Source: Actinomycetota bacterium (GTDB lineage: Bacteria > Actinomycetota > Acidimicrobiia > Spongiisociales > UBA4744). From it: a stretch of DNA of 56,164 nt. The stretch lies in NCBI GenBank assembly GCA_013152275.1, contig JAADGS010000058.1:1-56164 (forward strand). The letters are read 5' to 3'. Positions within the stretch are counted from its first letter, which is position 1. Each line of letters begins with the position of its first letter. Made by a program: the position numbers and the translations under genes. Below are positions 8,308 to 17,557 of this stretch, in pieces. Under the pieces are notes generated by a model. The model was not told where the DNA came from. It ran no database searches and saw only the letters and a program-made list of their open reading frames with translations.

Positions 8308-8341
8308 TTTGACTCGCATGAGCTATTCCGAAGGGAGTGAA

Positions 8342-11300
8342 ATGACCGCCAGGCTTCGCATCACCCGCCGCTTCACCAAGGCTGGGCGTGATCCGTACGA
8401 AGAGATCGACTGGACCTTTCGGGATTCCCGCATCACGAATCCCGACGGATCGATCGTCTTCGAGATGAAGGATGCGGAGGTCCCGGCAGCGTGGTCCCAA
8501 GTTGCCTCGGACATCATGGTGTCGAAGTACTTCCGTAAGGCGGGCATACCGCAGACAGACGAACACGGCAACCCGCTCGTGGACGGCAACGGCGAGCCGG
8601 TATTGGGTCCTGAGAGTTCCGCCAAGCAGGTGTTCGATCGCCTCACCGGCGCATGGCGCTGGTGGGGAGAACAGCACGGATACTTCTCCTCGGAGGAGGA
8701 CGCCCGAGCGTTTGAAGACGAGTTGAAGTACATGCTGGCCAATCAGATGGCCGCCCCGAACAGCCCACAGTGGTTCAACACGGGTATCAACTGGGCGTAC
8801 GGCTTGACGGGTCCCGAGCAGGGTTTCTGGTACGTCGATCCCGACACGGAAGAGCTGGTCTCCTCTCCCGACTCGTATAGCCGCCCATCCCCTCACGCCT
8901 GTTTCATCCAGAGCGTCAAGGACGATCTCGTCAACGAGGGCGGCATCATGGATCTCTGGACTCGTGAGGCTCGCCTGTTCAAGTTCGGCTCCGGAACGGG
9001 AACCAACTTCTCGTCGATTCGTGCCGAAGGCGAACCGCTTTCCGGTGGTGGCAAGTCCTCCGGTGTGATGTCGTTCCTCAAGATCGGTGATCGAGCCGCC
9101 GGAGCGATCAAGTCCGGTGGCACGACCCGCAGGGCGGCCAAGATGGTCATCCTCGACATGGACCACCCCGACATCGAGGAGTTCATCAACTGGAAACGGC
9201 TCGAGGAGGAGAAGGCGAAAGTCCTCATCGAGCACGGAGGCCTCACTTCGGACTTCAACGGCGAGGCATACCAGACGGTCTCAGGTCAGAACTCGAACAA
9301 CTCCGTGCGGGTGACCGCCGAGTTCCTCCGCCGGGTGAAGACCGACGGGGATTGGGACCTCATCGAGCGCAGCACCGGCAAAGTCCGTAGGACGGTGAAA
9401 GCACGAGACCTCTGGCGTCAGATCGCCGAGGCTGCGTGGGCCTGTGCGGACCCGGGGATACAGTTTCACACCACCATCAACGAGTGGCACACGTGCCCTG
9501 CCGGTGGCGAGATCAGGGCCTCCAACCCCTGTTCCGAATACCTTTTTCTGGATGACACCGCCTGCAACCTGGCGAGTCTCAATCTCGTGAAGTTCTACGA
9601 CGACGAGTCGGGAAACTTCGACATCGAGGCGTACGAGCACGCAATCAGGATCTGGACGATCGTGCTGGAGATCTCCGTCACCATGGCGCACTTCCCCGCC
9701 AAGCCGATCGCCCAGGGCTCCTACGACTACCGGACCCTCGGTCTCGGTTATGCGAACCTCGGTTCGCTCCTCATGCGTTCGGGGTTCCCGTACGACTCCG
9801 ACGGTGGCCGTGCGATCGCCGGAGCCTTGACGGCGATTCTCACGGGTGTCGCGTACAAGACGTCGGCCGAGATGGCCAGTGTGCTCGGACCGTTCCCGAA
9901 GTGGTCGGAGAACGCCGAGTCGATGCTGCGCGTCATCCGGAACCATCGCCGTGCTGCCTACAACGCTCCTGCCGACGCGTACGAAGGTGTGAGTCACTAC
10001 GTCATGGGGATCAACCCGGACCTGGCTCCGGATTCGCTCCTCGAAGCGGCCCGCCACGCGTGGGACGAAGCCCTCGCCGCAGGTGAAGACCACGGATTCC
10101 GCAACGCGCAGGTCTCCACGCTTGCCCCGACCGGCACGATCGGTTTGCTGATGGATTGCGACACGACGGGCGTCGAACCGGATTTTGCACTCGTGAAGTT
10201 CAAGAAACTGGCCGGTGGCGGCTACTTCAAGATCGCTAATCAGTCGATCGCACCCGCGCTGCGACGCCTCGATTACGACGAGACGCAGATCGAGCGAATC
10301 GTTCGTTATGTCGCAGGCACGATGACACTCGAGGGCGCCCCTCATGTGAACTATGAGTCCTTGCGGGCAAGGGGGCTCTCCGAAGGAGCCATCGACAGGA
10401 TCGAGCGCACGATCCCGAGTGTTTTCGAACTTCGGCACGCGTTCAACGTGTTCGTAGTCGGTGAAGACTCCCTGTTGGAGATCGGTCTGAAACCAGAGGA
10501 TTACACATCGTTGGGATTCGACCTCCTCGCGTCTCTTGGCTTCTCACCCCAGGAGATCGCGGAGGCCAACGACGTCATCTGTGGAGTGCAGACCATCGAG
10601 GGTGCCCCTGGTCTGCGCCATGAGGACTTGGCGGTCTTCGACACCGCGAACCGCAACGGGAAGCACGGGAAGCGATTCATCCACCACGTGGGACACATCA
10701 AGATGATGGCTGCGACACAGCCGTTCATCACCGGTGCCATCTCCAAGACGATCAACATGCCGCACGAGGTCACCCCCGACGACATCAAGGAGGCCTACAT
10801 GATGTCGGCCGACCTCGGATTGAAGTCGATGGCGCTCTACCGGGATGGTTCGAAAGCGTCACAACCGCTCTCTTCTTCATCCGATGACGGCGCCTCCGAC
10901 GAGGACGAGGAGACCGTCGTGCTGGCCCTGGAGCACGAAAAGGCGGTTGCCTGGGGCGAGATCATGAACGCGGCGAGCCCGACGCAGGCATACAGCAACG
11001 GCCACAGGCGACCCCGGTTCCTCCTCCCCGGGAAACGGCAAGGGTGGACCCAGGAAGCACGCATCGGCGGACACAAGGTGTTCCTGCGGACCGGAGAGTA
11101 CGAGGATGGAACCCTCGGCGAATTGTTCATCGACCTGGCGAAGGAGGGAGCGACACTTCGAGGTGTGCTGTCCTGTTTTGCCATCGCGGTGTCCAAGGGT
11201 TTGCAGTACGGGGTGCCGCTCGAGGAGTTTGTGGACACGTTCACGTTCCACACGTTCGAACCTCGCGGCATGGTCGAAGGACATCCAAACATCAAGATGG

Positions 11301-11722
11301 CCAACTCGATCGTCGACTATGTCTTCCGGGTGATCGGCCTCGAGTACCTGGGACGGACCGATCTGGTCCAGGTGAAGCCGCAGGCGTCGTCTCTTCCGGA
11401 ACCTCCGAAGGGGCTCGTCACCGAGGCGGGGCTCCAGCTCGATCTGACCGAGGCTGCGATGGAGAAAGACATCGAGGTGGAGAGGAAGGCGGCGAAGTTC
11501 GCCGATACCCGAGACGGTCACGGACCGGGAACGCCCGCCGCGACGACGCTGAAGCAGTCGCGCCCGGTGACCGCAGGCGATGTGGCGACCGCTTCGGTGC
11601 AGTCGGCCCTCGCCGACATGATGGGGGACGCTCCCCTGTGTCCGACGTGTGGGCACATCACGATCCGCAACGGCACCTGCTACAAGTGCCTCAACTGCGG
11701 GGACACGACCGGCTGTTCGTGA
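8342..11722 (+). CDS. nrdJ: Vitamin B12-dependent (class II) ribonucleoside-diphosphate reductase
   Basis: It makes deoxyribonucleotides with adenosylcobalamin as radical source, independent of oxygen. The protein has about 1126 residues. It shows NSPQWFNTG, the loop CFIQSVKDDL, FGSGTGTNFSSIR, the active-site cysteine in NPCSEY (residues 395-400), and APTGTIGLLMDCDTTG. A long C-terminal extension ends in a zinc-ribbon-like CPTCGH...CYKCLNCGDTTGC, which probably carries the reducing cysteines. The start at ATG 8342 follows AAGGGAGTG; ATG 8318 and TTG 8309 are alternatives but overlap the NrdR-like box region more closely. It appears monocistronic. Confidence 0.96.
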   Translation: MTARLRITRRFTKAGRDPYEEIDWTFRDSRITNPDGSIVFEMKDAEVPAAWSQVASDIMVSKYFRKAGIPQTDEHGNPLVDGNGEPVLGPESSAKQVFDRLTGAWRWWGEQHGYFSSEEDARAFEDELKYMLANQMAAPNSPQWFNTGINWAYGLTGPEQGFWYVDPDTEELVSSPDSYSRPSPHACFIQSVKDDLVNEGGIMDLWTREARLFKFGSGTGTNFSSIRAEGEPLSGGGKSSGVMSFLKIGDRAAGAIKSGGTTRRAAKMVILDMDHPDIEEFINWKRLEEEKAKVLIEHGGLTSDFNGEAYQTVSGQNSNNSVRVTAEFLRRVKTDGDWDLIERSTGKVRRTVKARDLWRQIAEAAWACADPGIQFHTTINEWHTCPAGGEIRASNPCSEYLFLDDTACNLASLNLVKFYDDESGNFDIEAYEHAIRIWTIVLEISVTMAHFPAKPIAQGSYDYRTLGLGYANLGSLLMRSGFPYDSDGGRAIAGALTAILTGVAYKTSAEMASVLGPFPKWSENAESMLRVIRNHRRAAYNAPADAYEGVSHYVMGINPDLAPDSLLEAARHAWDEALAAGEDHGFRNAQVSTLAPTGTIGLLMDCDTTGVEPDFALVKFKKLAGGGYFKIANQSIAPALRRLDYDETQIERIVRYVAGTMTLEGAPHVNYESLRARGLSEGAIDRIERTIPSVFELRHAFNVFVVGEDSLLEIGLKPEDYTSLGFDLLASLGFSPQEIAEANDVICGVQTIEGAPGLRHEDLAVFDTANRNGKHGKRFIHHVGHIKMMAATQPFITGAISKTINMPHEVTPDDIKEAYMMSADLGLKSMALYRDGSKASQPLSSSSDDGASDEDEETVVLALEHEKAVAWGEIMNAASPTQAYSNGHRRPRFLLPGKRQGWTQEARIGGHKVFLRTGEYEDGTLGELFIDLAKEGATLRGVLSCFAIAVSKGLQYGVPLEEFVDTFTFHTFEPRGMVEGHPNIKMANSIVDYVFRVIGLEYLGRTDLVQVKPQASSLPEPPKGLVTEAGLQLDLTEAAMEKDIEVERKAAKFADTRDGHGPGTPAATTLKQSRPVTAGDVATASVQSALADMMGDAPLCPTCGHITIRNGTCYKCLNCGDTTGCS

Positions 11723-13520: not shown

Positions 13521-13758
13521 GTTCGTATCGGTTTCCCCGAGCCATGCGGCATCGAGCCCTGGCTCACGCCAGGACACCTGCTCCGCAGGCGCATCTCCCC
13601 CTATCGACCTCGGCTCGTTCCTCGCCTCGACCACTTTCTCCGCTGGGGGAGGCAGAACCACCAGGACGAAGGCGCACCTGAAGATGCGTCGAGGCGGAGG
13701 ACGTAGCCAGGGGCGTCGAGGGCCGGAGAGACCCGGCAATCACTTGGGCGACACACCT

Positions 13759-14370
13759 CTAGACCGGTCGCATGCCCACCGGGAACACCGGAGGTTCGTC
13801 GATCCCGCCCCACTCCCAGTGCCACGGCTCCGGGGTGTCGCCGCCGCAGACGGCCCAGAACGGAAGCACCCACCCGTGCTCCGCACCGTGTTCGGTCAGC
13901 CACCGGAACGCCTCGCTGCGGCAGTTGACCTGCCGGCCGTTCGAGGTCACGTCGATGGCCCGGCCCCAGCCGTGGTTCGATCGTCCCGGGGTGGCCGTCG
14001 CCTTGTTGCAGGCGCTCGGCGGCGCGTGGAGCGACCCGCAGTTGCGGATGTAGGTCTGGCGCTGTGACGCGAGACTGCGGTAACACCAGGCAGCTTCGAT
14101 CTGCACGCCGTCGGCTGCCGCATCGGCTACGAGCTGCAGCCATCGCGACGCGGCGTCGGCTTCGAGAAGGCACAGGCTCTGGCTTCCGTCGACCTCGACG
14201 AGGGCCTCGTCGGGCAGACGTCCGTTCGCTAATCCCTGCCCCTCGAGATCGGTGACATACGCAGCGTCATCGGACCGAAGGATCTGGACGTCTGCGGCCG
14301 CCCCCGCAGAGACGCCAAGGACGAAGAGCAACACGAGGGTGGGAGCAACGAGACGCCGTAGATGTCGCAT
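13759..14370 (-). CDS. M15 (VanY-like) D-alanyl-D-alanine carboxypeptidase family protein
   Basis: A secreted zinc peptidase of the LAS fold that trims peptidoglycan peptides. It has 203 residues with a signal peptide (residues 1-26, ending AGAAA). Zinc ligands are visible in SNHGWGRAID (His133, Asp140) and in EPWHWEW (His184), with the catalytic Glu181 just before. Several cysteines (67, 96, 111, 121, 150, 175) suggest disulfides. It follows the selenoprotein gene on the same strand by about 60 bases. Confidence 0.85.
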   Translation of the reverse strand: MRHLRRLVAPTLVLLFVLGVSAGAAADVQILRSDDAAYVTDLEGQGLANGRLPDEALVEVDGSQSLCLLEADAASRWLQLVADAAADGVQIEAAWCYRSLASQRQTYIRNCGSLHAPPSACNKATATPGRSNHGWGRAIDVTSNGRQVNCRSEAFRWLTEHGAEHGWVLPFWAVCGGDTPEPWHWEWGGIDEPPVFPVGMRPV

Positions 14371-14430: not shown

Positions 14431-14988
14431 TCAGACATCGTCGGGAATCCAGGGCTCCAACTCGACGCCGAGTGCGTCGGCGATCCGGTTGACGTAGGCG
14501 TAGTAGGCGGCCACTTCGGTGATGTGCAGCACATCGAGGTCGGAAAACGCCACAGCCCGCAAACTCGCAACGTCCTCCGCCGTCACCGTCGACGGGGCGA
14601 CCGTCACCTTCGTGGCAAACCGGAGCATCGCGAGGCGCCGCTCGTCGAGACCGGCCGTCTCGAAACCCGCCTCGATCCGGCCGAGCAACTCGTCGTCTCT
14701 CAGCAGCCGGCGCAGACCACGCCGGTGATGGGTGATTCAGTAGTGGCACTGGTTGATCGTGCTCACGACCAGAGCAATCATCTCCCGGTCGACCTTTCGG
14801 AGCGTCTTCGTGCCGCGCATCGCCTGCCGGTACAGGTCCAGATGGGTGCTCATGCTGCCCGGATCGAGGGAGTGGATGGTCATGATGTTGTCCACCCGCC
14901 CGTAGGCAGGGTCGACGGCCCTCGCGTGCAGCTCACCGAGCTCCCCGTCGTCCCAATCCCGATCGTCGATCGTCTCGATGAATGCCAT
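14431..14988 (-). CDS. Peroxidase-related (AhpD/CMD family) protein with in-frame UGA, probable selenoprotein
   Basis: Two open stretches in the same frame are split only by TGA at 14737-14739. Read through, they give one 185-residue protein of the carboxymuconolactone decarboxylase/AhpD peroxidase-related family at full family length. The upstream part ends NQCHY; the downstream part begins ITHHRRGLRRLL. The family normally has CxxC followed by His here, so the UGA (codon 84) sits exactly on the second, peroxidatic cysteine, giving Cys81-x-x-Sec84. A SECIS-like hairpin lies just downstream. The start ATG 14988 follows GGAGGAGGA; ATG 15006 is an in-frame alternative. It likely reduces hydroperoxides. 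No sel genes are in the window, so SelA, SelB, SelD and tRNA-Sec must be elsewhere. Confidence 0.85.
14707..14739 (-). promoter_or_regulatory. Bacterial SECIS element at the UGA codon
   Basis: Starting 12 bases after the UGA, the mRNA forms CCGGCG-UGGUCUG-CGCCGG: a 6-bp all-GC stem closing a loop with GGUCU. In E. coli fdhF the SelB-binding loop also contains GGUCU. From memory of that sequence, GG lies 19 bases after the UGA there, and it is exactly 19 here. Position, stem and loop together fit selenocysteine insertion. Confidence 0.8.
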
Positions 14989-15091
14989 TGGCGTGTCCTC
15001 CTCCATCGCTCACGACCATACTCATGTGGGAGGGGAATCCTGGGAACCGAAACTGCGACATCGACCCTCCCTCGATCTCTAGGATCGCCGC

Positions 15092-16462
15092 ATGGATGAC
15101 ATCAGCGGGCTGCTCCGCCAAACCGCCAGACTCGCCGACCTCTCGACCCTCGACCGGAGGCCGGTCTTCCCGCACGTACAACCCGATGATCTCCGAACAC
15201 TCCTGGCCGTACCGCTCCCCGACGCCGGCGTGGATCCCGACCGGGTCATCGAGGAGCTGGTCGCCGCGGCGGAGCCCGGCCTCGTTTCCGGGGCCGGTGG
15301 ACGCTACTTCGGGTTCGTCACGGGAGGTTCCGTCCCCGCCGCCCTGGCTGCCGATTGGCTCGCCGCGGCCTGGGATCAGAACGCCTTCTCGTACCTGTCC
15401 AGCCCGGCGGCAGCCATCGTCGAGGAGGTCGCCGCGGCCTGGATCAAGGACCTGCTCCGGCTCCCGACCGGCGCATCCGTCGGATTCGTGACCGGGTGCC
15501 AGATGGCGCACGTCACCTGCCTCGCCGCGGCCCGCCACGAGGTGCTGCGACGGGTCGGGTGGAACGTCTCCGAGCATGGTCTCGGTGGCGCCCCTCGCAT
15601 TCGCGTGGTCACCGGTCGGCACAGGCACATGACCGTCGACCGGGCGCTGCGCCTCCTCGGCATCGGCGAGACGGCCATCGAGCCCGTGGACACGGACGAC
15701 CAAGGCAGGATCCTCCCCGATGCCTTGGGCGAGACACTCGCTGCCGGGACAGGGCCGGTCATCGTCGTCGCACAGGCCGGAGAGGTGAACACCGGGGCGT
15801 TCGACCCTCTCTCGGCAGTGATCGGGATCGCAGCCGAACATGGCGCATGGACCCATGTCGACGGAGCGTTCGGCATCTGGGCGCGAGTGAGCGCGTCGTT
15901 GCGGCACCTCACCGACGGGCTCGAACTCGCGGACTCGTGGGCGTTCGATGCGCACAAGTGGCTCAACGTTCCCTACGACTCCGGTGTGGCGGTCTGTGCA
16001 CATCCGGAGGCCCACCGCGCCGCGATGCTCGGCGAGGCCGCATACCTTCTGCCTTCGGCAACCGAGCGTGACGCCATCGATTGGACACCTGACGCGTCGC
16101 GACGCGCTCGCGGATTCGCCGTGTACGCGGCACTTCGATCGCTGGGCAGGAATGGCGTCACAGATCTCGTCGACCGTTCGTGCGCGCACGCACGCCGTCT
16201 TGCGGACGGCATCTCCCGACTTCCCGGCGCGACGATCCTCAACGACGTGGTCCTGAACCAGGTCCTCGTACGCTTCGGTGACGACCACACCACCGAACGG
16301 ATCTTGAACCACGTGCAGGACGGCGGTGTCGCCTGGATGGGTGGCACCACATGGAACGGACGAACGGCCATACGAATCTCCGTGTCGAGCTGGGCCACCA
16401 AGGACACGGACGTGGACCGCACCATCGCCGAGTTCGCCGGCGCCGTACGCACCGTCACCTGA
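15092..16462 (+). CDS. PLP-dependent decarboxylase/aminotransferase family (group II decarboxylase-like)
   Basis: A 456-residue fold-type I PLP enzyme of the group II amino-acid decarboxylase superfamily. It shows GGSVPAALAADWL (substrate side), the PLP-binding Asp257 in THVDGAFGIWA and the Schiff-base Lys289 in FDAHKWLNVPYDSG. Some relatives are annotated as aspartate aminotransferase-like proteins, so the reaction is not certain; aromatic L-amino-acid decarboxylation is the closest guess. The ATG follows AGGATCGCCGC. It diverges from the selenoprotein gene. Confidence 0.85.
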   Translation: MDDISGLLRQTARLADLSTLDRRPVFPHVQPDDLRTLLAVPLPDAGVDPDRVIEELVAAAEPGLVSGAGGRYFGFVTGGSVPAALAADWLAAAWDQNAFSYLSSPAAAIVEEVAAAWIKDLLRLPTGASVGFVTGCQMAHVTCLAAARHEVLRRVGWNVSEHGLGGAPRIRVVTGRHRHMTVDRALRLLGIGETAIEPVDTDDQGRILPDALGETLAAGTGPVIVVAQAGEVNTGAFDPLSAVIGIAAEHGAWTHVDGAFGIWARVSASLRHLTDGLELADSWAFDAHKWLNVPYDSGVAVCAHPEAHRAAMLGEAAYLLPSATERDAIDWTPDASRRARGFAVYAALRSLGRNGVTDLVDRSCAHARRLADGISRLPGATILNDVVLNQVLVRFGDDHTTERILNHVQDGGVAWMGGTTWNGRTAIRISVSSWATKDTDVDRTIAEFAGAVRTVT

Positions 16463-16558: not shown

Positions 16559-17557
16559 ATGGAGACGTTCATCGCAGGCCTTCCCAAGGCCGAGCTACAC
16601 CTGCACCTCGAAGGCACCTTGGAACCCGAGCTGAAGTTCGCTCTCGCCCGGCGCAACGGTGTATCGCTGCCCTACGGCTCCGTGGAGGAGATGAGCATCG
16701 CCTACGACTTCGACGACCTGCCTTCGTTCCTCACTCAGTACTACGAAGGCATGAGCGTGCTGCTCACCGAAGCGGACTTCTACGACCTCGCCTGGGCCTA
16801 CTTCACCAAAGCCGCGTCGCAGAACATCGTATATGCAGAGGTGTTCTTCGATCCACAGGCGCACACGACGAGGGGCGTCGACTTCAACACGGTGATCAGC
16901 GGCATCAACCGGGCACAGCTCGACGCCGCCGACCGGCTCGGCGTCCGCAGCGGGCTCATCATGTGCTTGTTGCGAGATCTCGACACCGAATCGGCGATGG
17001 CCACCCTCGAACAGGCCATCCCGTATCGGGACCGGATCATCGGAGTGGGCCTCGACTCCGACGAAAAAGACAATCCGCCGATCAAGTTCCGCGACGTGTT
17101 CGCCCGTGCCCGCGCCGAGGGCCTGCATCTCACGATGCATTGCGACGTCGACCAGGAGAACTCGGTCGACCACATCTGGCAATCCCTCGACGACATCGGC
17201 GTGGAGCGCATCGACCACGGCATCAACTGTCTCGAAGACGACCGTCTCGTTACCGAGATCCGCCGCCGCGGCCTCGGGCTCACCGTATGTCCCATCTCGA
17301 ACAGCTACGTCGCCGGAAGCCTCAAAGCGGAGCAGATCCGCGCGATGCTCGACGCCGGCCTCCGTGTCACGATCAACTCCGACGACCCCGCCTACTTCCC
17401 CGGCTACCTCAACGAGAACCTGCTCGCCGTACAACAGGCCGTGGACCTGTCGCGCGCCGACGTTCTGCGGCTGGTCAAGAACGCGTTCGAGGTGGCGTGG
17501 CTGCCCGAGACCGACAAGCAGGGCTATCTGGATGCCGTGGAGGCGTATTCGAGCTGA
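16559..17557 (+). CDS. Adenine deaminase (adenosine deaminase superfamily)
   Basis: A metal-dependent hydrolase of 332 residues. Zinc ligands are His14 and His16 in AELHLHLEG, His194 in LTMHCDVDQE and the aspartates in NSDDPAYF (275-276); the catalytic region includes RIDHG. The block FFDPQAHTTRG and the loop GLDSDEKDNPP, instead of the GLAGDE typical of adenosine deaminase, indicate the adenine deaminase branch. It would convert adenine to hypoxanthine for purine salvage. It follows the PLP gene by about 100 bases and could share its transcript. The ribosome site is CGGAG. Confidence 0.9.
   Translation: METFIAGLPKAELHLHLEGTLEPELKFALARRNGVSLPYGSVEEMSIAYDFDDLPSFLTQYYEGMSVLLTEADFYDLAWAYFTKAASQNIVYAEVFFDPQAHTTRGVDFNTVISGINRAQLDAADRLGVRSGLIMCLLRDLDTESAMATLEQAIPYRDRIIGVGLDSDEKDNPPIKFRDVFARARAEGLHLTMHCDVDQENSVDHIWQSLDDIGVERIDHGINCLEDDRLVTEIRRRGLGLTVCPISNSYVAGSLKAEQIRAMLDAGLRVTINSDDPAYFPGYLNENLLAVQQAVDLSRADVLRLVKNAFEVAWLPETDKQGYLDAVEAYSS

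Follow-up and report, generated by a model that had tools for sequence, protein, structure and literature searches.

The window, a contig stretch of 56,164 nucleotides, carries on its minus strand an AhpD-like gene of 185 codons, from an ATG at 14988-14986 to a TGA stop at 14433-14431. Its frame contains a single internal TGA, at codon 84 (14739-14737), which occupies the second position of the CxxC motif (NQCHY-U-ITHH). The sequence-only reading from which this work started had described one AhpD/CMD peroxidase-related frame split at this TGA; that description is retained here, with the strand now known, and the plus-strand reading of 14431-14988 was discarded as meaningless. The read-through protein scores 128 bits against the TIGR01926 model 'peroxidase-related enzyme' over residues 25-176 (cut-off 81.8) and 42.5 bits against Pfam CMD (cut-off 23), and lies below the threshold of the model for AhpD proper (TIGR00777, 20 bits against a cut-off of 191.95). 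A sequence search identified the solved AhpD-like structures 3c1l, 2pfx, 2oyo and 6k40 as homologous to it. We propose that the gene encodes an AhpD-like selenoprotein in which UGA84 is read as selenocysteine, an assignment that we hold with very high confidence. The features of the locus are collected in the table below; the stretch is collinear with the sister genome (G001), and in a genome of the same family (G002) the gene likewise has the VanY region and a ribonucleotide reductase for neighbours.

Table. Coordinates of the predicted selenoprotein gene, its elements and its neighbours in the window.
Feature	Positions	Strand	Basis
AhpD-like (TIGR01926) predicted selenoprotein gene	14431..14988	-	translation with TGA as U; matches to TIGR01926 and Pfam CMD
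UGA codon 84, predicted to be read as selenocysteine (CHYU)	14737..14739	-	TGA in 43 distinct close orthologues; Cys there in distant homologues
GGAGGAGGA, purine-rich, Shine-Dalgarno-like	14996..15004	-	sequence; 7 bases before the ATG
Predicted SECIS hairpin	14707..14725	-	third-position covariation; GGT at codon 91; same offset as fdhF
Cys81, first residue of the CxxU pair	14746..14748	-	invariant, 45/45
Glu69, equivalent of AhpD Glu118 and PA0269 Glu36	14782..14784	-	invariant, 45/45; spacing as in PMC3141380
His88, equivalent of AhpD His137 and PA0269 His55	14725..14727	-	invariant, 45/45; spacing as in PMC3141380
VanY-like	13759-14370	-	neighbour
PLP-dependent decarboxylase	15092-16462	+	neighbour
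Adenosine deaminase	16559-17557	+	neighbour
Class II ribonucleotide reductase	8309-11722	+	neighbour

The evidence that codon 84 is under constraint comes from its relatives. The orthologue search covered 297 related genomes, of which about 64 possess a close orthologue (about 54-90% identity); in nearly all of these, the matching region contains one TGA or two. Of the orthologues that were fetched, which represent many genera, all 43 distinct close ones that contain a TGA in frame have it at codon 84 with the frame open beyond, and the surrounding motif is N-x-C-(H)-Y-U-x-x-H-H-(R)-R-G-L-R. The ratio dN/dS remains below 1 on either side of the UGA, with values of 0.18 upstream and 0.29 downstream in the comparison with the sister genome, and 0.42 and 0.14, respectively, in that with G002. 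As a control, all 392 candidates for TGA read-through across the window were compared with the more distant G002 alone, the sister genome being left aside because antisense shadows of conserved genes dominated a scan that included it. Of the candidates that retain their stop in G002, this UGA has the highest two-sided identity (85%/73%, the runner-up reaching 69%/59%), in a control in which antisense shadows can also look conserved. One orthologue (L083, G120:C116:218-763) carries TTA (Leu) in place of the TGA, with the hairpin intact; selA was not found in that genome, which is 79% complete, and the substitution can therefore be attributed either to a sequencing error or to a recent loss of Sec. 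A scan of a set of genome contigs yielded no more than two loci: in a Planctomycetota contig the codon is TGA, and in an Acidobacteria contig it encodes Cys. A second group of sequences within the same class (L088-L093, ~30-42% identity), including members from 1-Mb genomes, has a UGA at the same site in the motif CxYU-xxAHL.

Directly downstream of the UGA, the transcript could form the hairpin CCGGCG-UGGUCUG-CGCCGG, in which a 7-bp stem (14725-14719 with 14713-14707) presents GGUCU in its apical loop (14718-14714). Its first base lies at +12 from the UGA, that is, 11 nt downstream, and the GG at +19/+20, so that the arrangement is that of a bacterial SECIS placed just past the UGA with a conserved G in the apical loop. 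Both the hairpin and the GG offset, which had been likened to that of E. coli fdhF, were correctly given in the sequence-only reading: in the RefSeq E. coli genome, GGTCTG stands at exactly the same distance from the TGA of fdhF. The loop is conserved at synonymous sites, the codon of Gly91 being GGT in 41/43 orthologues (GGT makes up 22% of the other Gly codons) and that of Leu92 being CTG in 42/43 (31% of the other Leu codons). The stem is paired in 91.9% of cells across 39 distinct sequences, and 12 changes affect both sides of it, as compared with 2.0 in shuffles, none of the 500 shuffles reaching 12. The most strongly covarying pair, 18-30, occurs as GC (29), CG (5), GU (3), AU (1) and UA (1) and is unpaired in 0/39; since it joins two third codon positions, constraint on the protein is a poor explanation for the covariation. 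Pair 15-33, the outermost, is present in only about half of the sequences. For the single sequence, the folding energy does not stand out (z = -1.27), and it is the comparative signal, namely synonymous conservation at codons 91-92 together with stem covariation at wobble positions, rather than the folding energy, that carries the case for a SECIS element. The orthologues form a clear comparative example of constraint on a bacterial SECIS, in which an fdhF-like GGUCUG is kept at synonymous sites.

The selenocysteine machinery on which such a reading depends was found in the genome of the window as far as selA (C99:43779, 444.6 bits), the adjoining selB (302.4 bits) and selD (C37:10226, 381.8 bits) are concerned, all above cut-off. 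An intact tRNA-Sec was not found in the 100 contigs of this draft assembly, either with the Rfam model or by pattern search, but the gene appears to be split across two contig ends. A search with the 3-kb locus of the sister genome, in which ARAGORN finds tRNA-Sec intact, revealed that contig C37 ends in the last 10 bases of tRNA-Sec and that contig C30 breaks off among tandem copies of the first ~30 bases of this gene. Because both contigs end inside the gene and the gene is intact in the sister, the tRNA-Sec most likely lies in an assembly gap. Matches of at least 57 bits, above the cut-off, were obtained in 20/21 other genomes searched, the sister included, and all eight of the eight loci run through ARAGORN were read as tRNA-SeC. 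A tandem repeat of 67 bp that holds the 5' part of the tRNA-Sec is the probable cause of the break. At the end of C30 (L103:2947-3105), about 2.4 tandem 67-bp copies with this 5' part are present, and in the sister genome an extra copy of the 3' half of the tRNA-Sec, 88% identical, is found (L054:1402-1459). A dispersed short repeat located near the tRNA-Sec of the sister genome (L054:1056-1123) has about 20 matches in the genome of the window at 77-95% identity, one of them in the window itself (13591-13657). The selD gene (L018, G000:C37:10226-11155) is itself a selenoprotein gene with an in-frame TGA in HGSGUACK, at the site where SelD proteins usually carry Sec. Among the genomes compared, selA is present in 42/42 well-assembled genomes with the UGA form, as compared with 123/173 overall (p = 5e-8, hypergeometric, a value that ignores relatedness and shared ancestry).

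Two other readings of the UGA itself have to be weighed. The gene could be a pseudogene or the product of a sequencing error, in which case translation would simply end at the UGA and yield the first half of the protein alone. A single in-frame stop in a draft assembly of many contigs is in keeping with such an origin; however, the same TGA recurs in the distinct orthologues, which come from other assemblies, and the downstream halves, whose disruption in close relatives would have been expected of a decaying gene, are intact and under purifying selection, which makes this explanation extremely improbable. Alternatively, the UGA could be decoded by near-cognate suppression or by a reassigned code, for instance as Trp, and not as selenocysteine. 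Beyond the open frame itself nothing was found that favours this proposition, and several observations contradict it: the same gene terminates at TGA, synonymous positions within the SECIS-type hairpin are conserved, selA, selB and selD are present, and the site is occupied by Cys, not Trp, in distant homologues. The latter was seen in the alignment with Cys homologues envisaged at the outset, which comprises the Acidobacteria contig and, over approximately residues 22-174, 3c1l and 2pfx, and we give decoding as another residue hardly any credence. The comparative data thus argue that UGA84 is almost certainly translated as selenocysteine, a statement in which the insertion of Sec is deduced from conservation and context. 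A standard gene finder would cut the gene short at codon 84, and the same fate would befall about 60 close orthologues.

In AhpD, the second Cys of the CxxC motif is the peroxidatic one. The relay residues are Glu118, Cys130, His132, Cys133 and His137 in M. tuberculosis AhpD and Glu36, Cys48, Tyr50, Cys51 and His55 in P. aeruginosa PA0269 (PMC3141380), and the same spacing, that of an AhpD-type active site, is found here in Glu69-Cys81-Tyr83-Sec84-His88. Glu69, Cys81, Tyr83 and His88 are invariant in all 45 sequences of the alignment, of which 44 have Sec at position 84. We propose that UGA84 would be recoded by SelB with Sec-tRNA-Sec, bound to the GGUCU loop of the hairpin, so that a Cys81-x-x-Sec84 pair would be placed within the relay. 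Sec84, activated by His88 and Glu69, would then most likely attack the hydroperoxide; Cys81 would resolve the resulting selenenic acid, and the selenenylsulfide so formed would be reduced by a cellular reductant. It is on this basis probable that the protein acts as a peroxidase, the activity, substrate and reductant being inferred. The selenoprotein could also be mainly an electron adaptor, or a disulfide/selenenylsulfide reductase serving another peroxidase, in the way that AhpD serves AhpC. In M. tuberculosis, AhpD combines the adaptor function for AhpC with a peroxidase activity of its own (PMC3141380), and a CxxU pair would suit either role. Against a predominant adaptor function, no AhpC-like partner was seen among the adjacent genes, and no redox partner at all among the neighbours examined; we consider this role possible, and less likely than that of a peroxidase.

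The gene is a new member of a kind already known. AhpD-like selenoproteins of COG2128 with the CxxU motif were described in 2005 from 27 sequences of the Sargasso Sea (PMC1088965), a 2006 survey of bacterial genomes reported two AhpD-like (COG2128) selenoproteins, 'AhpD-like 1' was the fourth most abundant family in the GOS data in 2008, with 299 copies (PMC2398784), and a 2026 review and catalogue lists 'AhpD-like protein, TIGR01926, CxxU' (PMC13188914). The statement in the sequence-only reading that such selenoproteins had been reported is confirmed by these sources, and its suggestion that the CxxU arrangement might be less described is not, the motif having long been known for the family (PMC1088965, PMC2398784, PMC13188914). 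As judged from its predicted protein, the gene belongs to this AhpD-like CxxU family (COG2128/TIGR01926) and is not of a new kind. A literature search for acidimicrobial actinobacteria with selenoproteins or selenocysteine returned nothing relevant, and the host lineage may be little described in this respect. It can be tentatively hypothesised, with the odds rather against it, that in this order the enzyme has been inherited vertically in its Sec form, that this form is one main cause of the retention of the Sec machinery, and that it represents a clade-typical selenium-dependent peroxide defence not yet described there. The known range of AhpD-like selenoproteins is widened by this locus, and the understanding of the kind is unchanged. 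With the published family, the gene shares a TIGR01926 score above cut-off, the position of the CxxU pair and a bacterial SECIS directly downstream, and differs in its host lineage, the likeness having been established by family model and motif. A CxYU motif is also found in NF041238 (AhpD_rel_CFYUT), an alkylhydroperoxidase-related (seleno)protein family whose AhpD-type domain is related; the present protein is not a member, since it scores 45 bits where 175 are required. When compared with M. tuberculosis AhpD and PA0269, the five-residue relay is equally spaced, with Sec instead of the second Cys, and the same exchange distinguishes the protein from its Cys-form relatives 3c1l and 2pfx.
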